Shown: positions 7,704 through 60,560 of the stretch, in pieces
Layout of the letters: every line of letters starts with the position of its first letter
How positions within the stretch are numbered: the first letter of the stretch is position 1
Source of the DNA: Lepidostoma basale
Taxonomy: Eukaryota; Arthropoda; Insecta; Trichoptera; Lepidostomatidae
Assembly (NCBI GenBank): GCA_022606425.2
Contig: JAHDVF020000524.1
Location: 1,178,001 to 1,242,000, forward strand
Length of the DNA: 64,000 bases
Direction of reading: 5' to 3'
Made by a program: the position numbers and the translations under genes
Notes under the pieces: generated by a model
Databases searched by the model: none
What the model was told of the DNA's origin: nothing
Seen by the model: only the letters and a program-made list of their open reading frames with translations

Positions 7704-7745
7704 GATGCCAACTAGTTTCGCTTGGACCCAAGCTTCATCAGGGCA
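7704..7745 (-). ncRNA. Hammerhead-like motif, family E, intact core
   Basis: On the - strand: TGCC, CTGATGA, A, GCTTGG-GT-CCAAGC, GAA, ACTAGT, T, GGCA. Stem I TGCC/GGCA pairs, stem II is a perfect 6-bp helix, and stem III is the palindrome ACTAGT, so it would pair in a dimer. This matches the type I hammerhead plan (core CUGANGA, GAA, cleavage-site H) except for one extra A between the core and stem II. Activity is unknown. Confidence 0.5.
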
Positions 7746-7815
7746 GTATAATAACCCTTATAACCAGGGCAGCATGCATTATTAACCAGGGCAGTATAAT
7801 AACCGTTATTATAGT

Positions 7816-7856
7816 GCTCTAATGAAGCTTGGGTCCAAGCGAAACTAGTTGGCATC
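7816..7856 (+). ncRNA. Hammerhead-like motif, family E, mutated core
   Basis: The inverted partner of 7704-7745. The helices are the same, but the core reads CTAATGA. G5 of the hammerhead core is replaced, so this arm is predicted inactive even if the other is active. Confidence 0.4.
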
Positions 7857-8010
7857 AATATAATAACCCTACCGTGGTTAAATACAAAGTTATTTTATTT
7901 ATATAATTATATCAATATAATAGCTAAAATCAAAAACAATGTATACAGCATTGCATATTATATTGGGTTTAAACGACCTGTTTAATACAAATAAATGATA
8001 AAAAAGTAAA

Positions 8011-8490
8011 CTAACTAACAAACCACCACGCCATCTCTCCGAAGGGGTAGGCTGAAAGAATGTACTGTCACACTTATCTTTCCTGACATATTTCTCTTGC
8101 TTCCTCAACATTCATACATCGTGTTATGCACATTCGTGGCCGACATTCAATAAATGATTTATTTGATCGTGCCAGGTTTTTTCCGGTCTTCCTCTATTTT
8201 TAGTTTCATTTAAATTGTTAGCATATAATTTTTTTACCATTTGTTCTTTCCATGTGTCCAAACCATCTTATTGATCTTTTCATTATTTTGTTAATAACAC
8301 CATCATTCGCACCGTATTCACTTCTTATATTTTCATTCGACACTCTATCATACACAGAGTGTCCACACATTCGTCTAAGAGATCTCATTTCTACTGCATG
8401 TATTCTACTTTCATGCTTCTTTTGTTAGTTCCATGCTTCGCTTCCATACATAAGGGTCTATACAAAATCACCACTGTGCACTGCCATTTA
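8011..8490 (-). mobile_element. RTE-like LINE, 3' fragment
   Basis: An antisense copy of the ORF2 end with several frameshifts. It runs from the region of PTLMYGSEAWN (near 8450) to the tail at 8011, where the + strand shows AACTAACTAACAAACC next to CACGCCATCTCTCC. It is decayed. Confidence 0.75.
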
Positions 8491-8572
8491 AGCTTTATTT
8501 AAGTAATAAAATTAAAATCGTAACCAAGATTGTTATTAATAAAACCTGTAAATAAAAACACTTGATTCTTAC

Positions 8573-8613
8573 CAAGATGGAAATGTCTGTTCTTCTTTAC
8601 AAACGCCTACAAT
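8573..8613 (-). CDS. Possible small exon (weak)
   Basis: On the - strand an acceptor (TTAACTGTTTCAG) and donor (TTG, GTAAGA) enclose 41 nt with a single open frame, IVGVCKEEQTFPS plus two bases. It is phase-compatible with 8900-8935. Both intervals are very short, so chance is a serious alternative. Confidence 0.2.
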
Positions 8614-8899
8614 CTGAAACAGTTAATAATATATGAGTCATGGTAAACAAAATTAATTCAATTTTTTTACAAACATGGCTGAAACATTGTTTTACAGTAG
8701 CGAGAACTCGTTACATCTAAAGATCACATCAATTATCCAACTCATTATGAATTTAAATGCAAATATTATTGTACTGTGAGTCTGTATTAATCTAACTGCG
8801 AATATAATAATGCCCACCTCTCATCTGGTTGATCTCTGTAACACATTCTGACGTTGGCGTGAAAACAGTTAAAAGTTACATAAACCTCCAAATGCTAAC

Positions 8900-8935
8900 C
8901 TGATTCCGGCTTATCGTCCAATCATTAATGAACTG
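8900..8935 (-). CDS. Possible small exon (weak)
   Basis: On the - strand an acceptor (GATTTTTTCACAG) and donor (CAG, GTTAGC) enclose 36 nt reading QFINDWTISRNQ in phase 0. The frame is also open upstream to an ATG (MIFSQ...), and TATAAAT lies about 90 nt further upstream, so a first exon is the alternative. No known protein is suggested. Confidence 0.2.
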
Positions 8936-9106
8936 CTGTGAAAAAATCATCTCATTAAAATCACCGTTTTAGATTGCTCCGCTATAAAAACATAAACGGA
9001 GTTATCGTTGGATTTATAAGCAGCTCTTAGTGATTCAATTAAAAATAAATAACAAACTATACATCGCGTCTGTTTCTAGATTAGCAAATTTAAATAATAT
9101 TTTTGT

Positions 9107-9682
9107 CTATTGTTTCTTGAACAATGATGTAAAACTCCATCTTCTTCTTTAAGAGCCGTTGTCGTCCACTGCTGGACATAGGCTTCCCCTATACTTCTCC
9201 ATGTATGAAATGTCATACGGGGGTGGTTGGCATTACAACGCCACGCTTGCCAGACGGGTTGGCTTTCACATTAGCCTATGCATTAATATTATCCACCGAG
9301 GTTATTCACACTCAATCTCTAACATTTCACATAGTTTCCAGGGGAGACCCAAAGTCGAGGAGGTGTGGATATGTACTTGGGATCAGATCAATCCTCCAGC
9401 GTTGCATGGCCATAACCACGGCGATGGCCATGCACCGTTCGAAGAGTCAATAGGATCCCCCTTACTCCCTACATATTAAAACTCCATATTAAATCATTAA
9501 TATGAACGAAAACGTCTGTCTTCTAGGAGTTTTATTATATTTCAGATGGAATTGCATGTTTCGCCCTTCTATGGCATTATCAAATTATACATTTGATAAT
9601 GCCTTAGAAGGACGAAACATGTCATTCTATCTGAAATTAAATAAAACTCCCAGAAGAAAGACGTTTTCATTCATATTAATTA
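9107..9682. repeat. Foldback C with nested insertion
   Basis: The left end is TTGTTTCTTGAACAATGATG, then AAAACTCCAT at 9131-9140. A retroposon insertion (9141-9477) follows, then AAAACTCCAT again and the rest of the left arm. The arms meet at about 9585-9590, where ATTATCAAAT faces ATTTGATAAT. Each arm carries the GAAACATGTCATTC block next to CCTTAGAAGG. The outer conserved blocks are GAACGAAAACGTCTGT and its complement. Confidence 0.7.
9141..9477 (-). mobile_element. LINE 3' end inserted with 10-bp target duplication
   Basis: Flanked by direct repeats AAAACTCCAT (9131-9140 and 9478-9487). The - strand reading at the left end gives the QQWTT tract at the C-terminus of insect LINE ORF2. The + strand frame (NATLARRVG..., HGHNHGDGHAPFEES) is the antisense shadow commonly seen over this LINE type. 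It is 5'-truncated, and the clear target-site duplication marks it as a retroposition event. Confidence 0.65.
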
Positions 9683-9714
9683 AATATTGTTGTCTTTTAA
9701 TTTTAGATAAAATT

Positions 9715-9945
9715 AAGGCGTTAACACTGTGGAATTCCATAATGACGAATTTTTATGAATTAAAACACTGTTTTTTCCACTTTTGAGTTTATTTTTTCGA
9801 CATGTTTCGAAGGTTTACACCTTCATCATCGGGAGAACGATATAAACTTTATATCGTTCTCCAATGATGAAGATGATGAAGTTCTCCCGATGATAAGCCT
9901 TGTGTAAACATGTCGAGAAAAATAAACTCAAAAGTTGAAAAAACA
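9715..9945. repeat. Foldback B, one good arm and one rearranged arm
   Basis: The left arm (9715-9838) contains the shared outer block GTGGAATTCCATAATGACG, CCACTTTTGAGTTTATTTTT and the core motif. The right side (9855-9945) repeats AATAAACTCAAAAGTTGAA but the core region is scrambled by local duplication (GATGATGAAG, GATGATAAGCC). Better copies are at 33570-33790; a diverged copy is at 47630-47790. Confidence 0.6.
9792..9838 (-). ncRNA. Hammerhead-like motif, family B
   Basis: On the - strand: TTCTC, CCGATGA, T, GAAGG-TGTAAA-CCTTC, GAA, ACATGT, C, GAAAA. Stem II is a perfect 5-bp helix and stem III is palindromic. Core U4 is C here, unlike the intact copy at 33679. Stem I is partly paired. 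Confidence 0.4.
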
Positions 9946-9956
9946 GTGTTTCAACA

Positions 9957-10050
9957 GACCAGTCTGTCGATGCCAGCGAGCCTGGCGAAACCGGTCGCTG
10001 TCTAAATAAAGACAAAAGTGGAAGTAGTTAAAAAACATCGTTTTATTTAA
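9957..10050 (+). repeat. Foldback F, single arm
   Basis: Contains CTGTCGATGCCAGCGAGCC, then TGGCGAAACCGGTCGCTGTC, and the outer block AAATAAAGACAAAAGTGGAA. The helix GCCAG/CTGGC precedes GAA and the palindrome ACCGGT, the same layout as the hammerhead-like motifs but with a degenerate core (CTGTCGA). Other copies: 14044-14150, 14625-14665 (-), 25026-25125, 38980-39160, 42662-42760, 46250-46430, 46612-46690, 56225-56400. Confidence 0.6.
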
Positions 10051-10179
10051 TTATCATAAAAATTCTTTATTGTTGTCTTGTTAATTGAGCGTTTGTTACA
10101 TTTTATAATGTTTATAAAAAAATAATTTATAGAATTTATTTTCTTCTATACTCCCCTTCGCCTGTATGGCGCCTTTATC

Positions 10180-11967: not shown

Positions 11968-11983
11968 TTATTTTTATATTATT

Positions 11984-14674: not shown

Positions 14675-14770
14675 TTTATTATTAACACCTGATAATGCCA
14701 AAATCGGTTGGCGAAACAGCTGTCTCAAAATTCTCTTTTTTTTATAATTTTTTATATTTTGTAATTGAAA
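14675..14770 (+). repeat. Foldback D, single right arm
   Basis: CTGATAATGCCAAAATCGG, TTGGCGAAACAGCTGTCTC: core CTGATAA, T, GCCAA/TTGGC, GAA, palindrome ACAGCTGT, C. G8 of the core is A. Confidence 0.5.
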
Positions 14771-17412: not shown

Positions 17413-17440
17413 TTCTTTGTTTAGTTTTTATTATATTTTT

Positions 17441-17520
17441 ACACCTGAATATGGAAGTATCCTCCGAAACATTTCGTGTTTTTTTTAATATTTTGTGGAT
17501 TAAACTAAATTATTTTCAAT
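17441..17520 (+). repeat. Foldback A, single right arm
   Basis: ACACCTGAATATGGAAGTAT, CCTCCGAAACATTTCGTGT, then the outer arm GTGGATTAAACTAAATTA. The core is CTGAATA (G8 lost) and the palindrome is damaged. It is an inactive relative of 43862-43900. Confidence 0.45.
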
Positions 17521-18030
17521 TTCCTAAGTATATTGAATATTTCACTATAAAGAAAGATATCGGCTTTTTTTTTAATGTTTAAATGTTTTATATCCTTTAT
17601 TGAGACGGATTATATGTGCAAGTGTATATCTTGCAGTATAGGAATTACAAATAAGCGATTCCTTTTTAGTAACGAACAAGCCTAGGCGTTAATTTTATTG
17701 GTTAAGGTTTTTTTTATAATGCTCATTCCGGTAACCAACTCCTCGCCGTTGTTGGCGGAATACGATCCAAGTACCTACTCGTGTCTCGTATGCCCAAAGA
17801 AACGCATTTCCTACTGCACGCTTGCAACATTGGAATTTTCAAAGAACTACCTTTCCGAGAATGGCCATCATCCTGGAAAACAGAAATGTTCAAGTAATTG
17901 TGGGAATTTTTATGTAACCACACCACACCATAACCAATTTTCGTTACATTTAATGTCTTCGGATAATGACATTTTGTATATTAGAAATGCAAAGTGATAA
18001 CGTCTGTATGTTTGTTTCAACATTTATTAA

Positions 18031-23165: not shown

Positions 23166-23559
23166 CTATATGTTATCTATCTTTAACTAGATCACTAATT
23201 AAGTCGTCAATAGTCATATTAATATAACGACAAATTGCAACGGTACCAATTACGAGTAATTATCTAGAAAGCGGAGCGACAAAAAATCGGATGTGATTTA
23301 GAAAGAAATGGAATCTATTAGTGTTTCCGCTGTCCGTACGTCATTTGCTAAACGCTAACTGGATCCATTAATGTAACGATATGTAATTGTAAGATTATTT
23401 ATAGCTTTGGGAATGTGCATTAATTTTAAGTTGCAAAAAGAAAATGACAAATTGGACTTGACTTGAAATGAAATAATGGTATATTTTATTTCTCTTTTTC
23501 TTTTTTATATAATTTGTATATACAACACTTACATATGTTTGATGTGTTTTTGGGTAACA

Positions 23560-23935
23560 CCGTGTGATAACTCCATCTCGACCGACGTTTCGGAGATCGC
23601 TGCAGTCTCCATCTTCAGGTTGATGATCGTTGCAGTCAGGTAATGATCGTTGCAGTCTCCATCTTCAGGGTCATTACCCTGAAGATGGAGACTGCAACGA
23701 TCTCCGAAACGTCTGTCGAGAAGGAGTTATCACACGGTGTTACCCAAAAACACATAAAACATATTCAATATTTATATTTTGGGATCTCGGAAAAATCCGC
23801 GTATCTCGTCTTTCTGGACCGAAGTTTCGGAGATCATTGATCGGAATCTCCATCTTCAGACTAGTTATTACCCGGAAGATGAAGACTGCGACGATATCCG
23901 AAACGTCGGTCCAGAAAGACGAGCTCCGGTTATTT
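23560..23935. repeat. Foldback G, two nested pairs of hammerhead-like arms
   Basis: Four arms alternate: - at 23579-23620, + at 23676-23722, - at 23812-23862, + at 23868-23920. Each has CTGAAGA (or CGGAAGA), T, then GGAG...CTCC around an 11-14-nt loop, GAA, ACGT, C. The 23868 arm has stem I ACC/GGT. The outer flanks also pair (GGGTAACACCGTGTGATAA with its complement). The first pair is shuffled by a short tandem duplication of TGATCGTTGCAGTC. Confidence 0.6.
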
Positions 23936-24990: not shown

Positions 24991-25025
24991 TTTTTATGAA
25001 TCAAAATGAAATAAAACGATGTTTT

Positions 25026-25125
25026 TTAACTACTTCCACTTTTGTCTTTATTTCGACAGCGACCGGTTTCGCCAGGCTCGCTGTCGAAATAAAGACAAAA
25101 GTGGAAGTAGTTAAAAAACACAATT
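25026..25125. repeat. Foldback F, compact near-perfect palindrome
   Basis: The left arm TTAACTACTTCCACTTTTG, TCTTTATTTCGACAGCGA and its exact complement flank only CCGGTTTCGCCAGGC. The inner hammerhead-like half is deleted on one side, leaving a solo hairpin. Confidence 0.65.
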
Positions 25126-25934
25126 TTATTTAATTATTATTTAAAATGAACATCCATCAAGAGATTTCAGTAAAATCATTTGATTATCTTAATCAAAATT
25201 GCTTATTATGACTTAAATGAATTATGAATAAATGAATTAAGAATGAATTAATAAATGAATTAATAATGAATTAATAAATGAATTAAGAATGAATTAATAA
25301 ATTAATTATGAATTAAATTTTATGAATTTAAAAACATATTTTGATTTGATTTGATTTAATTTCATAAAATTGGCGCTCTATAAATTATCCAATTTATTAT
25401 TATTATTATTTTATAAGATAATATATTTTATTGTTAGTGAACCGCCAATGCACGTACAACTTGAGAGACGTCAATTACCGTTGATTATAATTCTTTAAAC
25501 AAAATAAAGGGCCATTATACCGTTTGCATTGGTATTATTTATTAAATCCAATCAAGCTGAAACGTCCCGAGCTAGCACGGTTTAATCTCGAAACAATACG
25601 ATCATCGATCCGGTCCGGTCCATTATTAACTCGTTCCCCACTTTCTTCTCCGATTGGAGAACATTGTCTCGAAATTCAATTAGTGCCATGAAAACATTTT
25701 TTGAAGTCTAATATCTCGCGGCCTAGCTGCGGGTTAGATAGGGAATGATTGGCGGTTTCGCAGTAGAAGGCACCTGTCATATACTAGAGCCAGTTAAGAA
25801 GGTTAACGGGGAACTAAACCTTTTTACTAAACACGATAACCGAAAATATATTTATTCTATATTCACCATCACTTTATGTAGCAGAATCTTAATAGTAACA
25901 TAACGCTGTATTTAAAATTAAAATTAAATTTGTG

Positions 25935-27740: not shown

Positions 27741-28424
27741 TACATATTATATTCGCTGTATACAAAACGAAAACTAGTATACAAAAGTGAAATTAATCAA
27801 ACAGTATTATTAATTTATTAATAATAATGTAAAAGTTAAGTGAATGATTATAAAAAAATAGTTTTAATGAATTGTGAAGTATTTTTAAACCATGTAAAAT
27901 TATTATACGCAATGTGAAAAATTGTATTTATAAGACATGCCCCAAAACACGTGTTCTTGGGGTTAGTGTTTAAGTGTATAAAAAAAGTGTTCAGTGAGTT
28001 TAATGCATCAAAAACCATGGATTATACGATGCAATTTAGTATTTTAGTCCACTAAGAAACTTGTAATTATTATTTTTGTTTTTGATTATAGATTAATATA
28101 GTTCTTACCCAATAGATTAATTTATGGAAGCTATCATTTAAATTAGATCGATGCGTGAAAAAATACATATTTAAGTGGTATATTTTTTCAGTTCATATCT
28201 CTAATAGATAGATAGAATTTTTTCTATAATTGTTTTTTTTTAATGTAGCGTTTGTCCATGTATCATATATTACCGATGGGAGTTCTGATGATAAGAAGAA
28301 AACCATAATGATTTATAACTATTTTACTATTTATTTATTTATTTACCGTATTCATTGATCGAGAGAATTTAAATTTTTTAATACTCCCGGGATATTTATT
28401 ATTAAAAAAAATTAAATAAAAAAA
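27741..28424. other. A+T-rich stretch, possible 3' UTR
   Basis: Unique sequence following the candidate exon. An ATG in good context (AAAACCATGG at 28017) opens only 12 codons. No repeat recognised. AATAAA-type signals appear only near 28405-28415. Confidence 0.25.
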
Positions 28425-28620
28425 TAAACACTAACCTTTTTAACCACGGAATGCTAATTATAATTGAATCCAACTGATTTCGTTTGCATCCATGCTTCTT
28501 CGGGGCAATATAATAATTTTCAGTTCTAATATAGCCCTGGTAAAGTTTGTGTGCAAGTGAAACTAGTAGGCTTCGATTTTAAATACCATTCTGTGGTTAA
28601 AATACAAAGTAATTCTTTTA
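28425..28620. repeat. Foldback E, diverged copy
   Basis: Left arm TTAACCACGGAATGCTAATT...CCAACTGATTTCG; right arm GTGCAAGTGAAACTAGTAGG...TCTGTGGTTAAAATACAAAG. Cores and helices are heavily mutated. It is an old relative of 7651-7908. Confidence 0.55.
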
Positions 28621-29554
28621 TTTTTTATACTTATAAATTTTAAATGTCTAACCACAAAATAAGCAATTCATTTGAAAACTTTAATTATTTTAATACTGAG
28701 CGGTCATAGCAACCTCTTTCAACCCCATTGATAAACTAAAACTATAAACCATTGCTGTTTCATATTACATATAACATGCAACGAAACTAACTAATATTCT
28801 TTTTATATCACAATTAGGCGGTTAACACTGGAATCACGTCAACATGAATTGCGTTGGAATTAAAACACTGTTTTTTTTCGCAAATGATTTATTATTAAAT
28901 AAATAAAACAGTGTTTAATATCATAACAAAATTCATAAATTATATACGGTTATGGAAATGCAAACTGTTGTATGAAAATAACTTCAACGCACGGATGAGA
29001 TGAAAACCTGTATTCCTGGCATATTGTAATGCAGTAATATTTTTTTACGTATTGTAATTTATATACATCCACACCTGACGACATTAACAAAATTTAATGT
29101 CATTTATGACATCGCTGGGTTATGCTTAAAATGCATCAAAATTCTTGAAACTGTATTGCAAAATTTATTATTTTAAATCTTAAATAACAATTGACTTGAG
29201 TAATTCTTCGTCTTTTAACGGTCAACTCCGATATAAAATATGCTTTTTTACATTCAAAATAAACACGCGGTATTTACATCTCGCCCTTAAGTGGAAGAGC
29301 GGTTAGGACATTTGGAATTCTTTCTTCGTTTATTCAGGTGTATTTGTGAAAGGAGTTAACGGAAAGAGCATTTTCTTGTATACGAGTATATTATGTTAAT
29401 AGTACGAAAGGTTTTTTTATACGTAAACATTTTCAACAAACTTGCTTGTAAACATTCAAAATAATATTGGTAATAAAAGCTCTCAGAGTTAAATTCGGAA
29501 TTTACAATTTTAAGAAGTTTTATGTTTCACTAATTAGACTGTACCTATAACCTT
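28621..29554. other. A+T-rich stretch, no gene seen
   Basis: Unique sequence. A short foldback B-like scrap (GCGGTTAACACTGGAATCACG ... TTAAAACACTGTTTTTTTTC) lies at about 28816-28880. No open frame or splice pair stands out. Confidence 0.3.
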
Positions 29555-32285: not shown

Positions 32286-32800
32286 TTTTTTATTCAATCA
32301 CGCGGACTTCTTTTTTGTAGAAAGGCTTCATTGAAGTGTAACACTTTTTCTTGTGTCAGTCATTAAAATAAATTATAAATCTATTTATTTAATTAATCTT
32401 CTTCTCGCAATGTCAAGTCGGGTTCTTACGACTTGAAAGAAGGCACATCTGTCACGGGCAAATACTAAGCAGCAATAATAATCCGATTAGTTTCACTTGT
32501 CTCATAATATGATAATTAATCCCGGATATCAGATGCAGCATTCATTTTTAGAATTATGGTGTTTTTGGGTCAACCCTTATGAAAAAGTGCAGCATAAAAC
32601 TGCCAAAAGATAGAAGAAATTTAAATAGACACTGTGCTGCTTAAACTTATAGTATTCAACGTATAAGAAGTGGAGGCAGTATGACCGAAAAGCGTTTTTA
32701 ATTATAGTATGAAAGAATTTATTTTATGTTCGCCATACTTTGTGTAGTAGATGTTTTATATTTATTTTTTCTCTTTTTTATACTTTATATAGGACACTAA
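32286..32800. other. A+T-rich stretch, no gene seen
   Basis: Unique sequence without recognisable repeats except a T-rich tract at 32760-32785. Confidence 0.3.
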
Positions 32801-32821
32801 TTTTTCAAACAAATTATGATT

Positions 32822-32867
32822 AAATATCAAACATGTTTCGGACTACCCGGTCCTCTCTCAGTGGTAT
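32822..32867 (-). ncRNA. Hammerhead-like motif, family K, partner
   Basis: On the - strand: ATACCA, CTGAGAGA, GGAC-CGGGTA-GTCC, GAA, ACATGT, T, TGATAT. Stem II and the palindrome are perfect. The core differs from CUGANGA by a swapped AG, and stem I has one mismatch. Confidence 0.4.
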
Positions 32868-32949
32868 TATTGACTTAAAAATGACTCAAAATTAATCCTC
32901 AAAACTGACCATATTTGTAAAAAAAATTATAATATTTTAAATATCATAT

Positions 32950-32995
32950 AATATCACTGAGGAAAGACCGGGTAGTCCGAAACATGGTTGATATT
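32950..32995 (+). ncRNA. Hammerhead-like motif, family K, 7-bp stem I
   Basis: AATATCA, CTGAGGA, A, AGAC-CGGGTA-GTCC, GAA, ACATGG, T, TGATATT. Stem I is seven perfect pairs, and the core CTGAGGA fits CUGANGA. Stem II has three good pairs (GAC/GTC); the inverted copy has the four-pair GGAC/GTCC. The palindrome is ACATGT in the partner but ACATGG here. The single extra A before stem II is present as in the other families. Confidence 0.5.
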
Positions 32996-33124
32996 TAATT
33001 TTAATTCATTTAAAAAGTTACTGTTGTATACATGGTATATAAAAAAGAAAAAGAAAAATATAAACAATGAATGGTTCATTATGACTGTCATTATGACACC
33101 AGAAGAGTATAAATACAGAAATAA

Positions 33125-34301: not shown

Positions 34302-35025
34302 ATGAAAATGTCTGTTTTCTAGAAGTTTAATTATAATTTTTGGGAATAGCATATTTCGCATGTCTAACGCATTATGAAATGTAACATTTGATAATGTCTT
34401 AGACAGGAGAGACATGGCATTCCCATAAATAATAATTAAACTTCTATAAAACAGACGTTTTCATTCGTATAAATGATTTAATATGGAGTTTACAACATTG
34501 TTCAAAAAACAACAAATAACAATATTACGATTTACTTAAACAACTGATACTTCAACCTACAACCCCCTTAAAACTACTTTTTATTTCTTCTATATTCAGT
34601 TTTTAATTTTGAACATTGAATAAGTGTTGTAGAGAAACCAAGTACAATTATATTTGATTCGAATAAATACGTCTGTTTTCTAGAAGTATAAATATATATT
34701 ATTGCAATGACAAGTTTTATCATTATCAAATGTGATTTCAACAATACATTCGAACGCGAAACATGTCATTCCTTTAAAACTTCTAGAAAACAGACTGTTT
34801 AACTTAATTTAACAATAAATAAGAATTTATATATATTCAATTTAAGTTTGTGTGTTTATTACGAAAGACACTCTTTAACAAATGAAGTCATGTAATTAAA
34901 TTAGTAATATTTATGACGATAAAAACGTATGTTTTATACGAGTTTTATTGCATTTTATTAGAGTGACATGTCTTAACTTGTTAGAATAGTATTAAAGGTG
35001 AAACATGTCACTATAGTGTTTAAAC
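34302..35025. repeat. Three successive foldback C copies
   Basis: 34302-34510, 34655-34800 and 34920-35025. Each has an inverted pair built from the outer block GTCTGTTTTCTAGAAGT and the inner GAAACATGTCATTC-like block. The first still ends in the hairpin ATTGTTCAAAAAACAA. Their cores (TTGATAA or worse) are far from a functional hammerhead. Confidence 0.6.
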
Positions 35026-35099: not shown

Positions 35100-35590
35100 T
35101 TAATTATGTTTAAACTTATTGAAAGTTAAGCCATTAACGCTGTGGAATTCCATAGTAATATACTTTGGGAATTAAAAAACTTTGTTTAATCCACTATTTT
35201 TTAATATAAAATATAAAAAAACACGACATGTTTCGGAGGATAGCTCCATCTTCAGGTGAAAAAAATATAACAAAAATTAAACCAAGTTTTTTTCTATTAT
35301 CATCTTGTATTATTATTATATAATATTATTTGTTATTTCTTACTGTTAAAAAATATTTGTTAGTACCTACTTATAATAAAAAGCCCAGGTTAATTTTTAA
35401 ATTTGAATTATTGTATCGAATTTTAAATGCGTTTTTTATTAGTCTTTCTATATTTTGTTTTTGTTATATTTTTACACTTGAAGATGGAGGTATCCTACGA
35501 AACATGTCGTGTTTTTTTTAATATTTTTTATTAAAAAATAGAGGATTAAACTAAGTTTTTTAATTCTCAAAGTAAGGTATGGGTAAAAAT
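35100..35590. repeat. Foldback A, full-size copy
   Basis: The left arm runs from GCCATTAACGCTGTGGAATTC through AACTTTGTTTAATCCACTA to the motif at 35222. The right arm has the motif at 35470-35512 and the complement of the outer sequence (GAGGATTAAACTAAGTTTTT). The central spacer of about 200 bp is A+T-rich and carries an open frame with no recognisable content. Other A copies: 43690-43901, 58905-59145, 17441-17520 (one arm). Confidence 0.65.
35222..35258 (-). ncRNA. Hammerhead-like motif, family A, intact core
   Basis: On the - strand: CAC, CTGAAGA, T, GGAG-CTATC-CTCC, GAA, ACATGT, C, GTG. Stem I is CAC/GTG, stem II four pairs, stem III the palindrome ACATGT. Its partner at 35472-35512 has TTGAAGA and a broken stem II. 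Confidence 0.5.
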
Positions 35591-36599: not shown

Positions 36600-36995
36600 G
36601 TATTTTCATAATTAATACTAATGAAAACGTTTACTTACTAAAAAAATACTTTATGAGAATAACACGTATTTCTTTGGTAAGGCAATATCTAATATCAAAT
36701 GGCCCCTTGCCATTCATATGAAATAAAAGGACACCTCTATAAACAGATAAAACTCCACGTTAAATAATTTATACGAATGAAAACGTACGTTTTATGGAAG
36801 ATTTATTATAATTAATGGGAATAACATGTTTCCCCTATCTAAGGTATTATCGAATGTCACAGAGTGTGAAACACTTGATAATGCCTTAGACAGGCAAAAC
36901 ATGTTACTCCAATATATTATAATAAAACTTCTAGAAAACAAACGTTTTAATTCCTATTATTTAATTAACAGAGAGTTTTACCATTTTTGAAGAAA
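36600..36995. repeat. Foldback C, two partial copies
   Basis: A decayed arm pair at 36600-36750 and a clearer foldback at 36770-36990. The latter has GGGAATAACATGTTTCCCC at left, and TTGATAATGCCTTAGACAGG, CAAAACATGTTACTCC at right. Confidence 0.5.
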
Positions 36996-37196
36996 CAATA
37001 TGTATATTTTTTTAAATGAAAACAATATATACTGGTGTTTCAAATCATTTTTTTCCAATAGTGTTCTTTATATCATTTTTATAATCTAGCTTATAGTTTT
37101 GTATTAATGTTTAAAAAAGAAGGTTAATAGATTGAATGTATTTTATAGGGAAAAAAACCTATTTAAAAGCATCATGAATCATTGGTAAAAAATAGC

Positions 37197-38817: not shown

Positions 38818-38979
38818 CTATTACTCTAAGAGCGAATAAGATAAAGCGAACAAAAATAACTGTAGTTTTTTTTTAAATTAACAAATTAAATAATTAATAC
38901 ACATTTTAAAGTAAATTTATGTGTCGCCTTGCTAAGGGATGTTCATATTAAATATTATAATAATTAAATTAAATGACGT

Positions 38980-39165
38980 TTTTTTCTTAACTACATCCCT
39001 TTTTTGTCTTTATTTCGACATCGACAAGTTTCGTCTTTCTAGCTGGCATCGACAGACTTGTCTATCGATGGAATCGACTGTCTAGTCTGTTGACATTAGC
39101 TAGCCCGGCGAAAACAGTCGGTATCGACATAAAAATTTAAGCATTTATTTAAAAAAAACATTGTT
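38980..39165. repeat. Foldback F, diverged
   Basis: The left GTCTTTATTTCGACATCGAC and right AAACAGTCGGTATCGAC arms are paired around the GGCATCGACAGACTTGTC region. It has tandem CGACTGTC-like additions in the middle and degenerate cores. Confidence 0.5.
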
Positions 39166-39174
39166 TTTTATTTA

Positions 39175-39550
39175 TTGTTTCTTTAACAATGATGTAAAAC
39201 TCCATATTAAATAATTAATACAAATGAAAACGTCAGTTTTCTAAAACTTTTATTATATTTTATGGGAATGATATGTTTCGCCCTTCTAAGGTTTTATCAA
39301 ATGTATGTATGTACCTTCTAAGGCATTTATTATATAAACCAAATAAACGATGATGTAGGTACCAGATGATGACAGAAAGCTGCCGAAACCGCATACATAA
39401 TAATAAAGAAATTTTGTATCAAGTTTTTTTTGTTTTCATTATTATTAAATGTTATTACATTTGATAATGCCTTAGAATGGCGAAACATGTCATTCCCTTA
39501 AAATATAATAAAACTTCTAGAAAACTGACGTTTTCATTCGTAGTAATTAT
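39175..39550. repeat. Foldback C with nested family H motif
   Basis: C arms at 39175-39305 and 39452-39547. The spacer holds ACCAGATGATGACAGAAAG, CTGCCGAAACCG: core CAGATGA, T, a mostly paired GACAG/CTGCC, GAA, ACCG. A related block lies at 37757-37795 (GGTACCAGAAGATGGCAGC). So a second hammerhead-like family sits inside the first. Confidence 0.5.
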
Positions 39551-42063: not shown

Positions 42064-42660
42064 GTACCTCGTTTAAATCGCCAGGCTAAACTGTCATCAA
42101 ATTTTATAGCCGACATACCTAACGGAATTTCACATACAATAATATACAACGGCAAAAATTACCAAAGACAGATTATCAATACGATACTAAGTCAACTCAT
42201 TATATTTTAAATTTACAGTGATTAATTAAATCTACTATAATCATTAATCATATAAAAAAAATATTCCAAACGTTCTGCTGCAGAAGAAATTAGGTTGAAA
42301 AAATTACGTTTATCAAAGACGTTCTTGTTGTTTTCATAACGAATTATCGAACGATTCAGGTATGCAAGAAAACGTTAGATTAAATTCTTTAACCTGTGTG
42401 TTCACAGAGGAAGTACCACAGTACCAACCGAATAATTTTTTCATCCAGATATAAATCATAAATGTCTTACGTGTTGAAATGATTCTCAATAATCCATGGG
42501 TAGACTTCTTAAAATTCTAATTAAAAAATGGTTTCATTAATTGGTTAAATTAGTACCCGGAGAACGTAGTACATTTTGAAAGAAATATGAACAGTTAAGA
42601 TAATCAAATAATTTTACTGAAATCTCTTGATGGAAGTTCATTTTAAATAATAATTAAATA
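42064..42660. other. A+T-rich, small open frame
   Basis: Following the second direct repeat, 42064-42210 stays open and reads RQAKLSSNFIADIPNGISH, TIIYNGKNYQRQIINTILS. It is unrecognised and has no start or splice context. The rest is unique. Confidence 0.2.
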
Positions 42661-42661
42661 A

Positions 42662-42900
42662 AACGATGTTTTTTAACTACTTCCACTTTTGTCTTTATTT
42701 AGACAGCGACCGGTTTCGCCAGGCTCGCTGGCATCGACAGACCATTGAGTTAACATTGGACAGAATGGACCTATCCATTCGTACGTGTTTTTCGACTGTT
42801 TTTGTTAAAACACCGACTCATGTCAGATTGAGCAAAACTTGCTTTTTTGAGTTAAGCCAGTGTTCTATTAAGCGTGGGATATATTTGGTACTTAGATTTT
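42662..42900 (+). repeat. Foldback F left arm joined to repeat Q
   Basis: 42662-42760 is a clean F arm (CGACCGGTTTCGCCAGGCTC, GCTGGCATCGACAGACC). 42770-42900 is repeat Q, in which the segments seen at 1965 and 4240 lie side by side. 42918-43062 is a decayed SINE-2. Confidence 0.55.
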
Positions 42901-43345: not shown

Positions 43346-43689
43346 CTCCTATCATGCGCACAGGAGCGAACAAAAGTATGCACACATAATTTAAATACAT
43401 ATTTTTTATCCATTTCAAGTTTTCACCGGACTTGAAACTTTAAACGCATTTTTCTCAAAACTGTGTTTTTCAAATATTCCTCCATCATATCTCAAGAACG
43501 GTTTAACCGAATGACTTCAAATTTATACTGTAGACTCTTGAACTGACTTAGACTGACTTTGTTGAATGTTTTGGCATTAAATAATATTATTTGCCGAATT
43601 GTGTCATACCAAAATTTTACTTAAACAAATAAATTGATATGGATAAATGGATTTATTTTAAATTTATTGAACGCTAGGGCGTTAAAACT

Positions 43690-43901
43690 GTGGAATTCCA
43701 TAGAAATATACTTAGAAAATTGAAAATAACTTTGTTTAATCCACTAATTATTAAAAAATATTCAAAAATACATGTTTCGGAGGATACCTCCATCTTCAGG
43801 TGTAAAAATATAATATTAAATTTTTCACATCTTCAGGTGTAAAAATATAATATTATATTTTTACACCTGAAGATGGAGGTATCCTCCGAAACATGTCGTG
43901 G
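43690..43901. repeat. Foldback A, truncated at an RTE junction
   Basis: The left arm with GTGGAATTCCATAGAAATA, AACTTTGTTTAATCCACTA and a - strand motif at 43770-43805; a short tandem of TCTTCAGGTGTAAAAATAT; then the + strand motif at 43862-43900. The right outer arm is missing and replaced by RTE sequence. Confidence 0.65.
43862..43900 (+). ncRNA. Hammerhead-like motif, family A, intact core
   Basis: CAC (43864-43866), CTGAAGA (43867-43873), T, GGAGG-TAT-CCTCC (43875-43887), GAA, ACATGT (43891-43896), C (43897), GTG. All helices pair perfectly. The RTE ORF2 fragment begins immediately after the 3' strand of stem I. Confidence 0.5.
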
Positions 43902-44170
43902 ATGGAGAAAGAATGGTTAGGAAAGTATACGTTAATGATGTAAATGGAGTACGGAGTCGAGGTAGACCGAGGAAAACATGGCATGACCAAATTAATCAAA
44001 TTTTAAAGATTGGTCATGTTAGAAGTCGGAAGAATCGACGTGCGTGCATGACTCGCTGTGTGAATGTGGAGGAATCTAGAGAGGTGTGCCAGGATAGAGT
44101 TGTGTGGCGGTCCATTCTCTCTGCCTACCTCTACGGGGAAACGGCGTAATGTTTTGTTGTTGTTGTTGTA
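43902..44170 (+). mobile_element. RTE-like LINE, 3' fragment (GTT tail)
   Basis: 83 codons open, MDGERMVRKVYVNDVNG, RGRPRKTWHDQINQIL, RRACMTRCVNVEESREVC, AYLYGETA, then GTTTTGTTGTTGTTGTTG. The 5' junction is with the hammerhead-like motif of foldback A. Confidence 0.8.
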
Positions 44171-45599: not shown

Positions 45600-46240
45600 G
45601 CCAACAAAAGCAAACAATCTTTATATATTTCTAAATATCTGATTTTATATGGAGTTGTATATAATTATTAATGGTAAAGTAAATAAATACTTCGATTAAG
45701 ATGTCAGCATTTATCACTATCCTGACTAATTTTTCTTAGATCCGTTTCGCTGTGGCAAAACTATATCATTCTTTTAAACGAAACTGCATCATTTGTTCCT
45801 ACGTTCTCCTGGAATAATAGTTGCCCATTTATACAAATTGAATGAATTAGCTTAAAATCAATTTTTGTGTCCGTTTTTTGTGACTATAAATGTAAAAGCT
45901 CTTATTAAACCTGAGTATGATATACGAGTATAACGTACAGCTGCCGGATATACAACGTTAATTTCATTGGAAATGTTAACACCTGTACACATATACAACG
46001 GACATACTTCAAAAATTGTTCGAATTCTTAATTTAAATTTTGAATTTTGAGACAATCGATTGTCAAATGCATTTAAACGTTACTTTAATTAGAATTCCAT
46101 TTATCCCATTAAGATCACCATCGGAATACTTTGTACGCAAATATGTGAGCTCGATGAATTTTGAAGGTAGATTTATTTTTGTTACTGAGATAGAACTTAA
46201 AACCAAATTATAGTATTATAATGACCTGTAATTTATATAT
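45600..46240. other. A+T-rich stretch, no gene seen
   Basis: Unique sequence. A 65-codon - strand frame at 45858-46055 has no recognisable content. Confidence 0.3.
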
Positions 46241-46249
46241 TTTTTATTA

Positions 46250-46430
46250 ACTTCTTCCACTTTTGTCGTTACTTCGACAGCGACTTGTGTCGCCATCCTG
46301 GCTGGCATCGACAGACTGGTCAGATTTCACAGTCAAAAACTGATAAATAGACCAGTCTGTTGATGCCAGACAGACTGGCGAAAAGGGTCGCTGTCGAAAT
46401 AAAGACAAAAGTGGAAGATATAAAAAATAA
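46250..46430. repeat. Foldback F, both arms
   Basis: Left TTCGACAGCGACTTGTGTCG, CTGGCATCGACAGACTGG; right GACCAGTCTGTTGATGCCAG, GGCGAAAAGGGTCGCTGTCG. The right-arm core reads CTGTTGA. The outer block is TTCCACTTTTGTC and its complement. A further left arm lies at 46612-46690. Confidence 0.6.
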
Positions 46431-46984
46431 TCGTCGTTTTAATTCATTATTATTTAATAGTATAGTAATATTTTAAAGATTTAGCTCTGCCGTTAATTAT
46501 TTTATTATATTGTGTTTGTGGTAGTATATAATTGACCTAATTTAATTTTTTCTATGTGTTTTTATACTTATTACACTAAGTAAATAAAATAAAATATAAA
46601 TACCTTTTTTAATAACTACTTCCACATTTATTGTTATTTCGAGAGCGACGTGTTTCGCTAGGCTAGCTGGCATTGATAGACTAATATCTATACGATAATA
46701 TTTATTCACAGCAATTCACTTAAGACTTTATGGCTCTCATGTACGTGTCAATTTTGGATGGTGATGATTCATTTCAGCCTTCGACAAAAGACGGGTACAG
46801 ATTGACGGATTGAAACATTTGAATCTTAACATCTGGACAGTCCATCCGACGTCATGCTTGTAACAATTAAATATAACAAGTGGCAGGTGCTATAGGGTCA
46901 TGGCACGCGGGGAGATAGCGAGTGTGTTAGTTATGAAAGCTGTATTCAATAGGCGATCATTTAACAACTTAAATACAATTGGTT

Positions 46985-47352: not shown

Positions 47353-47375
47353 TTTGATCTCAAAATCATTTTTAC

Positions 47376-47620
47376 GTAATTAATACGAATGAAAACGTCA
47401 GTTTTCTAGATATTTATTATATTTTATGGGAATGACATGTTTACCCTTCTAAAACATTATCAAATTCCTTAGAAGGGCCAGGTTTGATAATGCCTTAGAA
47501 GGGCGAAACATGCCATTCCCATAAAATATAATAAAACTTCTGGAAAACTGACGTTATCGTTCGTATTAATTATTTAATATGGAGTTTTACATCCTCGTTC
47601 AAGAAACAATACATATATTT
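47376..47620. repeat. Foldback C, well-preserved copy
   Basis: The left arm 47376-47455 and right arm 47487-47616 meet at a spacer with a partial tandem of CCTTAGAAGGGC. The right arm reads TTTGATAATGCCTTAGAAGG, GCGAAACATGCCATTCCC and ends with the hairpin GTTCAAGAAACAAT. Confidence 0.65.
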
Positions 47621-51132: not shown

Positions 51133-51239
51133 GTAAATCCAAACCATCCAGGGACCCACTCAAACACATGCAAAAATTTCATCAAAATTGGTCTAGCCGT
51201 TTAGGAGGAGTAATTATATATGTAAAGATGAAAACGCGA

Positions 51240-51300
51240 TTGCTGGTACAAATTTGTTTCGCCTTGCAAGGGCATTCTCAAACTGCCCAACGAAATATTT
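51240..51300 (-). repeat. Family M arm
   Basis: On the - strand TTTGAGAATGCCCTTGCAAG, GCGAAACAAATTTGT: helix GCC/GGC, GAA, then the 10-nt palindrome ACAAATTTGT. It has the same plan as the hammerhead-like families but a poor core. Relatives: 40615-40670 and 53455-53580. Confidence 0.45.
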
Positions 51301-56165: not shown

Positions 56166-56224
56166 ATACAAGATTATATTTTTTTTTTCATTAGTTATTT
56201 AGATTCTTAAATAATAATGAAATA

Positions 56225-56410
56225 AAACGATGTTTTTTTTATAACTACTGCCACATTTGTCTTTATTTCGACAGCGACCGATTTTGACACGCATCGACAG
56301 ACTGGTCCCTATCTGGGCCCAGTCTGTCGATGCCAGCGAGCCTGCCGAAACCGGTCGCTGTCGAAATAAAGACAAACGTGGAAGTAGTTATAAAAAAATC
56401 AATGTTTTAT
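56225..56410. repeat. Foldback F, both arms
   Basis: Left GTCTTTATTTCGACAGCGAC; right CAGTCTGTCGATGCCAGCGA, GCCGAAACCGGTCGCTGTCG. The arms are almost perfectly paired around GGTCCCTATCTGGGCCC. Confidence 0.65.
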
Positions 56411-56462
56411 TTAATTATTATTTGAATTGAACTTCTATCAAGATATTTCAGATAAATCATTT

Positions 56463-57080
56463 GATTAACTAACTAACTAACTAACCATCACGCCGTCTCC
56501 CCGGAGGAGTAGCCAGAAAGAATGGAACGCCACACTGTTCTATCCCGACATACTTCTCTCGCTTCCTCTACATTCATACATCTTGTCATGCACGCACGTC
56601 GATTTCTCCGACTCCTCACGTGACCGACATTCAATATTTGATTGATTTGATCGTGCCACGTTTTCCTCGGCCTTCCTCTATTTCTAGCTCCGTTCACGCC
56701 GTTTACATATACCGTCTTTACCATTCTGTCTCCACTCATTCTTTCCATGTGTCCAAACCATATTAATGACCCTTTCCTTATTTTGTTCATAACACTTTCA
56801 TTCGCACCACATTCACTTCTTATGCTTGCATTTGTCACTCTATCATATACAGATTTGCTACACATTCGTCTTAGAGATCTCATTTCTACTGCATTTATTC
56901 TACTTTCATCCTTCTTTTGCCAGTTCCATGCTTCACTTCCATACATAAGGGTCGGCACAAGAACACCATTGTGCACTGCCGTCTTGGCTTTTTTGGATAG
57001 GCTTTTGTTTGCGATGACAATTTGATTATGATTCTTGATAAGAAATCCAGTATTCCTTATTTTTTGTTGCATTTTCTTTT
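56463..57080 (-). mobile_element. RTE-like LINE, long ORF2 3' frame (GTTA tail)
   Basis: 194 codons open on the - strand: KKAKTAVHNGVLVPTLMYGS, AWNWQKKDESRINAVEMRSL, LIWFGHMERMSGDRMVKT, RGRPRKTWHDQINQIL, REVCRDRTVWRSILSGYSSG. The tail is (GTTA)4 (TAACTAACTAACTAACC on the + strand at 56465). It is one of the two longest intact frames of the family. Confidence 0.88.
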
Positions 57081-57097
57081 GTATCAGTTCCTCTTAC

Positions 57098-58329: not shown

Positions 58330-58650
58330 TTTATTATTTCGTGAACAATATTGTTTAACTCCATATTAAATAGTTGATACGAATCAAAACGTCGGTTTTC
58401 CAGAAGTTTTATTATATTTTATTTGAATGACATTTGACAATGCCTTAGACAGGAAAACAGACGTCTTCATTCGTGTTACTTATTTGTTAAGTTATCAATC
58501 ATATCAAAGTCGGCATATTTATAAGAATGTAAACGTCTGTTTTCTAGAAGTTTTATTATCTTTTATGGGGATGACATGTTTCGCCTTCCTATAACATGTT
58601 TCGCCTTACTAAGGCATTATGTCATTTTCATAATTAAAAACAGAAATAAG
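58330..58650. repeat. Two foldback C scraps
   Basis: 58330-58480 has both outer blocks (AAAACGTCGGTTTTCCAG and GAAAACAGACGTCTTCATTC) but a deleted centre. 58515-58640 is a left arm with a tandem duplication of ACATGTTTCGCCTT. Confidence 0.5.
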
Positions 58651-58904
58651 ATTATTAAGGTGAAAAATCTTTAAAACAAGTATAGAAAAACCATCTCAAA
58701 TGTTAAAAAAATTGTTTAAATTTACAAAAATCGTTTTGTGGTTTATGTATTAGTCAAGTGTTTTTTTTTTTGGAATTCTTTTTTAAATTCATATTGTTAT
58801 CCAAATTATTATTTTAACCATCTTATCCGAACCTTTTTAGTCTTAAAATTAGAATAAAAATAAACTTATTGAACGCTGTGGAAAATAAACGTTGTCGAAT
58901 TCGA

Positions 58905-59145
58905 TTGTAATATACGAGTACTTAGTAAATTAAAAATAACTTTGTTTAATCCACTAACTATTAAAAAAAATATTAGAAAAACACTAAAAAACACGACATG
59001 TTTCGGAGGATACTTCCATCTTATATCGGTATTAGAAGGTATCAGAAGATGAAGGTATCCTCCGAAACATGTCGTGTTTTTTAAAAATTTTTTTTAATAA
59101 TTAGTGGATTAAACAAAGTTATTTTTAATTTCCTAAGTAGAATAA
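58905..59145. repeat. Foldback A, compact copy
   Basis: Left ACTTTGTTTAATCCACTAAC, ACACGACATGTTTCGGAGG; right CTCCGAAACATGTCGTG, GTGGATTAAACAAAGTTAT. The right core reads CAGAAGA, T, GAAGG..CCTCC. Arms are close to identical, with a spacer of only about 15 bp. Confidence 0.65.
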
Positions 59146-59173
59146 AAATATGTTTTATACATTTTGGTTATAG

Positions 59174-59245
59174 GCGACCCACCCTGTAGTTACACCACAA
59201 CTTATCTTTACTGATAAAGAAGGTATCGATATCGAAGACGATTAA
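59174..59245 (+). CDS. Candidate terminal coding exon, gene B
   Basis: After an acceptor ACATTTTGGTTATAG the frame reads ATHPVVTPQLIFTDKEGIDI, EDD, stop TAA, exactly 24 codons in phase 0. It therefore joins in frame to the candidate exon at 50956-51132. The acidic C-terminus is protein-like but the interval is short. Foldback A ends about 30 bp upstream. The product is unrecognised. Confidence 0.3.
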   Translation, partial: ATHPVVTPQLIFTDKEGIDIEDD

Positions 59246-59745
59246 GTCCTGTGCCCGGGTAGTCCTCCTTGCCGACAGGACTAAAGGATGTATAGACGTA
59301 GATTGCAGGTCCATTTACAGGATGCGAATAACGCGCATATGTCCATTCCTCGCAGATACGTATCTGATAAGTTAATACGTACATGATCGATTTTCGCTAA
59401 GCGAGTAATGCATCCATTTAACTCAAAAGGGCCTATTAAAGCTCCCCTGGGACGTGATCTTGTGCTGGTCCATGGAATATACCGATGTTTAAAGTACGCG
59501 GGACTCGAACATAGATCATTCGAAGCGTTGATCGATTCTTAACCATTTAACTTGGAGCATAGAACGTGTCCAGAAGAAATGATGTGAGTTCTGAGTGGAT
59601 TCTGCAGTAATATCATAATCTTAGATTACATAATTAATCCGTGAGCGTGGCGGTCAGAAATTTATAGTAATCAAACGAAAATTCATTAAACTTTGATAAG
59701 AAGCCATTTTTTTGGTGGTTTGATGTATATTAAAATAAAATTATA
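59246..59745. other. Unique stretch, possible 3' UTR or intergenic
   Basis: Less A+T-rich and free of recognised repeats. No further open frames with splice support. Confidence 0.3.
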
Positions 59746-59749
59746 CAAT

Positions 59750-59840
59750 AATTAATACGAATGAAAACATCAGTTTTCTAGTTTTATTATATTTATGGGA
59801 ATGACATGTTTCGCCCTTCTAAGGCATTATCAAATGTGCC
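59750..59840 (-). repeat. Foldback C, left arm only
   Basis: ACATCAGTTTTCTAG, GAATGACATGTTTCGCCC, AAGGCATTATCAAATG. No partner arm. Confidence 0.5.
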
Positions 59841-60414
59841 GAAATTTCAGCTCGTTGATGTTTATATACACTAGTAAATGGAGCAGAATATTGTAATTAA
59901 CGAAAATTTATGTGACTCGATACATTTTTAACAAATAATTATTCTGGTTGGTCCAGAAATATTGGAAAGTGTTTCTTGGAACTCGTTGAGAAATTTTATG
60001 ACTATGATTACATAGTTAGGGGATACTAAATAATATTATATAAATCAAAAATAAGTTATTTGAGGTAGGACGAAATAAAGTGTTTCTAAGAAAACTTCTT
60101 CTTTCAAATTATTTACAAATGATTTTACATATTTCAAGGTGACTAATGATTCTTAGTATTATAAATAAAATAAAATCGCCATCCTGTGTGCCTAGACTCA
60201 ACCGATGTATTCTTCTCTTCTGCATCTGAAATGTGAAATAAATACAGTGCAGAATGAAGAGTTCTTTGAATCTAATTATATATCGGAACGACATTAAGGA
60301 GTGGGGATGAATATATGTTAGTTTGTTCATTAATTAAAGTTAAATTAGGGTTTGTGTTATGCTTATTAATTTATAATTGTTCCAATAGGTTGACAGTGTA
60401 CCATTTATTATGGA

Positions 60415-60560
60415 TGTGTAGCGGAACCACTTTACTGAGATCGCAACGCCAACCGGTTTCACTCTGTAGCGAGCTTCATCAGGGCTGTACGCAATCTGTT
60501 TGTATATAGCTCTGAGGAAGCTCGCTACAGACTGAAACCGTTTGGTGCTACTAACTCAAA
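60415..60560. repeat. Foldback J
   Basis: Inverted arms at about 60440-60487 and 60505-60548, about 15 bp apart, sharing AGCGAGCTTC/GAAGCTCGCT and the GAAACCG block. It is the only foldback of this family here. A related solo motif is at 37524. Confidence 0.6.
60443..60487 (-). ncRNA. Hammerhead-like motif, family J, intact core
   Basis: On the - strand: GCC, CTGATGA, A, GCTC-GCTACA-GAGT, GAA, ACCGGT, T, GGC. Stem I is GCC/GGC, stem II four pairs including a terminal G-U, and stem III the palindrome ACCGGT. The + strand partner at 60510-60547 has core CTGAGGA and ACCGTT. Confidence 0.48.

Follow-up and report, generated by a model that had tools for sequence, protein, structure and literature searches.

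Endonuclease (EN)-bearing Penelope-like elements (PLEs) of the Penelope/Poseidon kind, as described in Adineta vaga (PMC3846280, excerpt; papers so marked are cited for the accessible part of their text) and for the Anolis element PAc (PMC11167929), have a frame with reverse transcriptase (RT) and GIY-YIG domains, direct and inverted pseudo-long terminal repeats (pLTRs), a tail of ~30-40 bp present in one copy, a target-site duplication (TSD) of ~10 bp, a hammerhead at the boundary between pLTR and open reading frame (ORF), and tandem copies. The tail is an optional extension (31 bp) on one inverted pLTR, the inverted pLTRs stand mostly head-to-head and the TSD measures 8-10 bp (PMC3846280, excerpt), and the tail region lies between two RT start sites (PMC3846280, excerpt; PMC11167929). 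Minimal type I hammerheads number in the thousands in many metazoan genomes, where most are dispersed and some lie in PLE pseudo-LTRs, and the lack of a stable stem III is usual in PLE hammerheads (PMC7761336, excerpt). Here we analyzed a 64-kb stretch of Lepidostoma basale contig JAHDVF020000524.1 (hereafter the window), which is AT-rich, crowded with retrotransposon debris and strewn with short inverted repeats, or foldbacks. We conclude that each foldback is very probably a minimal insertion of an EN-bearing (RT plus GIY-YIG) PLE, made of two terminal pieces placed head-to-head with no coding sequence between them, each carrying a small type I hammerhead close to the boundary of pLTR and ORF; a terminal piece is a pLTR end plus an optional tail. 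We read the foldbacks as PLE insertions because of the position of the hammerhead, the head-to-head copies, the tail on one arm, the TSDs and the linkage to RT/GIY-YIG frames, and the evidence consists of their anatomy, covariation, TSDs at some copies, one-arm tails and the linkage of families F2, F4, F10 and F11 to PLE frames. Unlike the PLEs of Adineta vaga and PAc, the copies in the window are one or two terminal pieces without coding sequence, and about eleven families lie together in 64 kb. Cervera and de la Peña in 2014 and Lünse et al. in 2017 reportedly described minimal type I PLE hammerheads that cleave as dimers. PLE-linked hammerheads are thus a known kind of thing, and the foldbacks are not a new kind; the first-pass annotation of this DNA, which took them for separate, under-described families and mentioned PLEs for comparison only, is superseded on this point.

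An inverted-repeat search of the window returned 38 pairs, the longest with arms of 132 nt. A motif recurs in the arms: CTGANGA and one extra base are followed by stem II and GAA, and then come an A...T palindrome, any base but G, and a return strand of stem I, complementary to the bases that precede CTGANGA. The motif is present in about eleven families (F1-F11), which we sorted by eye and among which F9 fits poorly. A relaxed core scan (CTGANGA with at most one mismatch, then 0-2 bases, stem II and GAAA) gave 25 sites in the window, one place being counted twice; 30 second-order Markov sequences averaged 5.5, and the reversed window gave 5. These results agree with the annotation in that many foldback families share one hammerhead-like plan, and the five copies that it had named were all found (starting at 7704, 32950, 33677, 35219 and 60445; Table 1). 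Its description of the cores as plain CUGANGA does not hold, as they are not canonical: a strict hammerhead scan without an inserted base found 0 sites in the window and 0 in 20 shuffles, because the window copies have the extra base. Exactly one extra base, usually T, separates A9 from stem II in 19 of the 25 sites; as aligned, it occurs in all families, mostly as T in F1-F6 and F11, as A in F7, F8 and F10, and as C in F9.

The core CUGANGA...GAAA with A15.1-U16.1, an H17 that is not G and the one inserted base is found in at least one copy of F3, F4, F5, F6, F7 and F10, and the best copy of F8 has an imperfect 16.1 side. Departures from the type I core are U3-A8 in F1 and F11 and U6 in F2. 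The annotation had overlooked both the base inserted behind A9 and the change to U3-A8 in some of the families that it set apart for weaker cores. A stem I of 3-7 pairs occurs in some copy of F2 (where the first pair is T-G), F3, F4, F6, F7, F8 and F10; stem I is weak in F1, F5 and the window copies of F11. Of 11 hand-picked family representatives, 9 have a perfect form of the palindrome announced between GAA and the 3′ strand; it is imperfect (ACATGG) in the F8 copy at 32950. This palindrome of 4-10 nt is all that the motif has in place of a stable stem III hairpin, and stem III would form between two motifs. Calling the families unrelated, as the annotation did, was wrong: F3 and F4 are alike in their 3′ part (E 1.4e-8). 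Minimal PLE hammerheads, in the excerpted accounts, share with the window the hammerhead core, a near-absent stem III, dispersal and location in PLE pseudo-LTRs; what sets the copies here apart, as aligned, is the extra base after A9 in all families, U3-A8 in F1 and F11, and U6 in F2. Rfam reported no hammerhead in the window at gathering threshold or at E<=10, its weak matches being mostly to miRNA-type families, several of them on foldbacks. At gathering threshold it was equally silent on 12 phage loci with hammerhead-like motifs, only six of which were checked as full hammerheads, and we therefore draw little from the negative result in the window.

We then measured whether pairing follows the hammerhead register. 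For stem I, palindrome length was fixed per family, and the 41 copies of 10 families were chosen by us, with a sliding register control as the guard against that choice. The sum of contiguous Watson-Crick pairing over the 10 families is 17.7 in the hammerhead register and falls to 1.5, 2.1, 3.5 and 3.8 after sliding by -2, -1, +1 and +2. Pairing with the family's own flank likewise exceeds that obtained when 3′ flanks are swapped among families (P 1e-5 for Watson-Crick pairs, 5e-6 with G-U allowed). An alignment of nine families, one row per family, has 81.9% of its cells paired, against 28-47% when slid; both sides have changed in 9 of 12 pairs, and the covariation of 0.581 drops to 0.063-0.171 once the structure is slid. 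A covariance model of these nine families found 59 places in the window at E<=1 and 40 at E<=0.01, the nine training copies included. The results confirm quantitatively the hammerhead plan and the covariation of its helices between families, both proposed in the annotation. Since pairing is kept in exact register despite the change in sequence, a conserved DNA-binding site, named there as a possible refutation through the GAAAC blocks, is insufficient as an explanation on its own.

The outer ends of the arms match PLE anatomy. Families have two discrete 3′ ends, which lie in the window, counted from GAA, at about +65-73 and +110-114 in F1, +70-78 and +124-127 in F2, and +73-75 and +119-143 in F4; the stretch between the two ends, ~40-50 nt long here, corresponds to the published PLE tail. 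We recounted tails with long templates in the six families whose tail is known, joining split and nested arms by eye. The window has 22 head-to-head pairs, with a tail on one arm in 15, on neither in two (F1 at 5.1-5.6 kb, F2 at 38.9 kb) and on both in none, while five have a truncated or undetected arm and were left unscored (F1 at 34.7 kb, F2 at 46.3 kb, F3 at 9.8 and 47.7 kb, F4 at 43.8 kb); the pair at 36.8 kb was counted as one-tailed, its other arm stopping ~14 nt into the tail. The genome searched is an assembly of 768.8 Mb in 1,572 contigs, and a sample of 40 F4 copies, taken from the contigs at the head of the genome list, again has bimodal 3′ ends (+65-80 and +110-125). An antisense arm lies within ~500 nt upstream in 23 of these copies and is absent there in 17; the 23 pairs comprise 12 long/short, 6 short/short (two of them with a second arm more than 400 nt distant), 5 with a truncated arm and 0 long/long. 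TSD-like words of 12-13 bp flank the F7 foldback, F4 at 59 kb and F5 at 0.4 kb (each P 0.0017), and words of 9-10 bp flank F2 at 25 kb (P 0.006) and F1 at 39 kb (P 0.003; Table 1), where P values refer to random 28-nt pairs in seven narrow search intervals fixed after the words had been inspected. Four whole foldback transcripts are predicted to form long hairpins (-177, -90, -74 and -110 kcal/mol); such self-folding would hide the ribozyme, and most window copies are therefore probably inert. As a separate observation, the 5′ ends of F1 alignments cluster at -21 to -27, at the hammerhead core, unlike the spread expected from random 5′ truncation.

To relate the motif to coding elements, we searched the genome with PF01541 (GIY-YIG), which gave 62 matches, and examined the neighbourhoods of 30 of these loci, among which two pairs overlap. 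A sense hammerhead lies within 1 kb 3′ of the GIY-YIG match in 24 of the 30, at a near-constant distance in 21 (17 of F2 type at 408-465 nt, 4 of F4 type at 357-401 nt); the others are of F4 type at 99 and 591 nt and of F5 type at 822 nt. An antisense hammerhead is found 53-1195 nt upstream in 14 loci, in 13 of them from the same family as the sense copy. Near one F2 hammerhead (locus L334; L335 is almost identical), a 758-aa frame matches both RVT_1 (1.4e-13) and GIY-YIG over the cut-off; PF00078 and/or PF26215 occur in all but one of the 120 listed homologues (1,343 found), whose named members include Phthorimaea, Euphydryas, Schistocerca and Diabrotica. A second PLE group comprises 14 loci, whose frames measure 742-861 aa (829-834 aa in 11 loci) and which are arranged partly in tandem (2,954-bp steps) and head-to-head on contigs C308 and C502. 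Here 11 of the 14 loci have a sense hammerhead, placed 293-295 nt ahead of the match (L346 at E 0.014); it is of F11 type in L345, L346, L347 and L349, whose sequences were inspected, and the remaining loci score alike. Among 12 further PLE frames, eight have a model match within ~1 kb upstream (7 antisense, 1 sense, F10-like). The window itself has repeated RT-like frames without a Pfam match (6579-7151, 12679-13074, 14149-14565, 25902-26558 and 56491-57090), several of which end GETA/GETT-like. The 219-aa frame at 25902-26558 has 69 related proteins, and those named by organism presumably belong to moths and butterflies.

Several results weigh against assigning every family to PLEs. A Pfam scan of 40 of the 44 window frames of at least 90 aa found no RT and no GIY-YIG, though it missed evident RT-like frames too. 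Six of the 30 GIY-YIG loci have no sense hammerhead within 1 kb 3′, and neither do 4 of the 12 further PLE frames have one upstream. Direct ties to coding PLEs are confined to F2, F4, F11 and F10 (one sense locus), with F5 at one locus, 822 nt away; F1, F3 and F6-F9 are assigned by shared tails, ends and plan, and F6, F8 and F9 by plan alone. Stem I or stem III is weak in F1, F5 and F9. The one-tail rule is not strict, with tail-less pairs making up 2 of 17 resolved in the window and 6 of 18 in the genome. The narrow TSD test, its intervals set post hoc, was significant in 5 of 7 cases and not in 2; when the scan was widened to 14, F4 at 59 kb and F5 alone were convincingly supported. Two of the six loci without a hammerhead (L304, L306) overlap stretches with bacterial-looking frames. 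Permease-like, UvrC-like GIY-YIG and transporter-like frames, which we take to be bacterial-looking, occur in L336 (G000:C102:20001-23200) and L337 (G000:C729:135301-138400), and the assembly may include bacterial DNA, perhaps of a symbiont.

Inverted repeats, TSD-like words of similar length at some copies and conserved GAAAC blocks would also be seen in DNA transposons resembling miniature inverted-repeat transposable elements, whose terminal inverted repeats happened to hold a hairpin and whose GAAAC and palindrome formed a transposase-binding site. We give this explanation a next to negligible probability: stems I and II vary between families and yet pair in one exact register, 15 of the 17 resolved pairs have outer ends made unequal by a tail where symmetric terminal inverted repeats were expected, single-arm copies exist (the 17 of 40 genome F4 copies described above), and the motif adjoins RT/GIY-YIG frames, no search aimed at transposases having been made. 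Type I hammerheads, small size and dispersed copies could also describe the retrozymes of animals; these are small elements, non-autonomous and propagated as circular RNA, and their known RNAs measure ~170-400 nt (PMC7229834, excerpt). The excerpt describes these as tandem repeats with circular RNAs, whereas the arms in the window, known from DNA alone, are inverted (head-to-head) or single, have PLE-like tails and, in some families, adjoin PLE frames, so that retrozymes are almost as improbable. It is less easy to dismiss, and still unlikely, that the motif derives from PLEs and the hammerhead is a dead relic, kept through its overlap with the start region and with RT-template signals. Core changes in numerous families (U3-A8 in F1, U6 in F2) and the weak stem I of F1 are in line with such decay, and the hammerhead of one PLE is dispensable for insertion in vitro (PMC11167929). 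On the other side, near-identical F2 and F11 hammerheads by coding frames retain stem I, stem II and the palindrome, and the change at C3-G8 is double and preserves a base pair.

Based on minimal PLE insertion with a type I hammerhead, we propose the following mechanism. The PLE RNA would carry the hammerhead near the pLTR/ORF boundary and, with a palindromic stem III, the hammerhead would be active chiefly when two of them form a dimer, as other PLE hammerheads reportedly do; as a dimer it may cut tandem PLE RNA into units, as the literature suggests, and may need the element's protein for this, a requirement reported for one lizard PLE. The PLE enzyme would nick AT-rich DNA and start cDNA synthesis within the RNA at either of two start sites; both target strands would be cut and extended, each primed near the RNA 3′ end. 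For PAc in vitro, two RT start sites are used, both strands are cut and extended, and the hammerhead lies at the ORF start (PMC11167929). Both cDNAs would then stop early and be joined, yielding a head-to-head foldback with the RNA 3′ parts outside, flanked by TSDs. Self-priming has been proposed for PLEs (PMC3846280, excerpt), and the head-to-head form could also arise by snap-back self-priming; we favour two-strand priming, as both outer ends coincide with the two family ends. PLE insertion is so far understood only in part, and thousands of minimal insertions that retain both ends would form a record of where RT started on each strand. In particular, the excess of long/short pairs and the lack of long/long pairs (none among the 17 resolved window pairs and none among the 18 resolved genome pairs) constrain models of two-strand priming. 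With Rfam silent on the motif in the window, such elements are possibly under-counted in insect genomes.

The U3-A8 and U6 cores next to coding elements are natural tests of which core contacts of the hammerhead can be traded. Positions 3 and 8 are C-G in 21 of the 41 copies of the stem I test, U-A in 11 and other in 9, one of these misregistered. All 9 F1 copies of the window that were used have the core TTGATAA, in which U replaces C3 and A replaces G8 together. The F1 pattern YTGATRATGCCTTAGAANGGCGAAACATG has 5,706 matches in the genome and its reversal 0; among the 100 matches listed, 96 are U3-A8, 4 U3-G8 and 0 C3. The F11 motif of the window also has a U3-A8 core (TTGAGAA), and F11 in the intact-looking tandem PLEs has the core TTGAAAA, a perfect stem I (TCAGT/ACTGA), a stem II, the 10-nt palindrome ACAAATTTGT and A at H17; F1 and F11 may have one ancestral double change in common. 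The F2 core CTGTCGA has U6, and near-identical hammerheads adjoin the EN domain in the genome. C3 and G8 have been described as a Watson-Crick pair (PMC2837043, excerpt), and exchanging both partly restores PAc cleavage (PMC11167929). Natural changes in CUGANGA comprise an A6C phage hammerhead active with Mn2+ and U3 with G8 in halophiles (PMC7151607, excerpt), compared with A6U (F2) and double C3U/G8A changes (F1, F11), in retrotransposons, here. Literature searches for a U3-A8 hammerhead found nothing, the papers of Lünse (2017) and of Cervera and de la Peña (2014) being outside their reach; the U3-A8 and U6 cores are new as far as checked and may already be in print. We tentatively suggest, rating it somewhat below even chances, that U3-A8 replaces the core C3-G8 pair and is fixed in two PLE families, that the ribozyme is still active as a protein-assisted dimer, and that the typical insertion draws a single time on each RT start site, with a different target strand for either.

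PAc suggested that the extra base might owe its presence solely to A9-U-G10.1 being the start codon of the PLE, an idea that was kept in part only. ATG is spelled at the extra base in families with T (F1-F6, F11) and not in those with A or C (F7-F10), and frames that start there end early in most families, as read by eye. In F11 elements, the hammerhead is followed after 77 nt, on its 3′ side, by the first ATG of the frame, which is thus not at stem II, unlike in PAc-type PLEs, and the start codon is therefore not the whole reason for the extra base. Phage hammerheads in IMG/VR resemble the window copies in their CUGAUGA-U-GGC...GCC-GAAAC with extra U and differ in having a full stem III hairpin. 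The phage pattern CTGATGATGGC...GCCGAAAC gave at least 120 unique matches (L003-L122), and it itself demanded the extra T; 72 of the 120 listed have a stem I of at least 4 bp and a stem III of at least 2 bp. At gathering threshold, Rfam reported no hammerhead in six such loci. Such hammerheads, with extra U and both stems, are independent support that hammerheads tolerate an extra base. Patterns for the insect families gave, in IMG/VR, 2 matches resembling coding phage DNA in one case, 0 in others and 17 in another.

Table 1. Foldbacks, single arms and motifs in the window (positions in nt; strand in brackets)
Feature	Position	Strand	Hammerhead or motif	Tail, TSD and remarks
F5 foldback (very probable PLE end, head-to-head)	305..969		hammerheads 407-455(-), 503-551(+)	long tail on left arm; TSD AATAAGAAAAAA at 293 and 970
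F1 arms	5090-5151(-), 5488-5586(+) (span 5090..5586)			both tail-less; F5 arm nested between
F5 single arm with tail	5192..5338	-	hammerhead-like 5290-5338
F7 foldback	7608..7910		hammerheads 7704-7748(-), 7812-7856(+)	tail on left arm only; TSD ATCAATATAATA at 7596 and 7911
F1 foldback	9101..9701		U3-A8 cores 9586-9626(+), 9547-9590(-)	left tail split; right tail-less
F3 foldback	9692..9954		hammerhead 9793-9839(-)	long left tail; right arm stops early next to F2 copy
F2 single arm	9957..10057	+	hammerhead 9957-10002, core CTGTCGA (U6)
F5 hammerhead-like motif	14682..14730	+
F4 single arm	17438..17534	+	hammerhead-like 17438-17481
F6 foldback	23520..23777		hammerheads 23672-23723(+), 23575-23625(-)
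F2 foldback	25008..25190			tail on right arm only; TSD AATCAAAAT at 24999 and 25191
F7-like foldback	28410..28676		hammerhead-like 28530-28574(+)	tail right only
F8 foldback	32752..33066		hammerheads 32950-32995(+), stem I AATATCA/TGATATT, and 32824-32868(-)
F1 foldback	33458..33939			tail left only; F3 foldback nested within
F3 foldback	33564..33824		hammerhead 33677-33723(+), stem I TTTTC/GAGAA	tail right only
F1 foldback	34290..34519			tail right only
F4 foldback	35105..35574		hammerheads 35219-35262(-), 35471-35514(+)	tail left only
F1 foldback	36748..37006			full tail right; left arm stops ~14 nt into tail
F2 foldback	38937..39192			tail on neither arm
F1 foldback	39170..39548		U3-A8 hammerhead-like 39454-39494(+)	tail left only; TSD-like ATTGTTTTTT at 39160 and 39549
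F2 single arm with tail	42594..42747	-	hammerhead 42702-42747, core CTGTCGA
F4 foldback	43655..43903		hammerheads 43860-43903(+), 43766-43806(-)	tail left; right arm breaks off at GAA+12
F2 foldback	46239..46457		hammerheads 46276-46321(-), 46350-46395(+)	left arm truncated, tail-less
F1 foldback	47355..47617			tail right only
F11 motif	51239..51287	-	core TTGAGAA (U3-A8)	same family as hammerhead of tandem PLEs
F2 foldback	56207..56470		hammerhead 56317-56362(+)	tail right only
F4 foldback	58863..59137		hammerheads 59036-59079(+), 58989-59027(-)	diverged tail left only; TSD TAGAATAAAAATA at 58850 and 59138
F10 foldback	60425..60569		hammerhead 60445-60489(-), stem I GCC/GGC
F1 arm with tail	62127..62268	+	U3-A8 core
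F5 arm with tail	63233..63408	-	hammerhead-like 63360-63408

Two foldbacks in the table are interrupted by other insertions. The right arm of the F5 foldback at 305..969 is divided by an insert of ~350 bp (~591-940), a dispersed element with ATTATAACAGT at both sides. An insert of ~330 bp (~9144-9476) divides the left tail of the F1 foldback at 9101..9701; it has AAAACTCCAT at both sides and resembles another short dispersed element.

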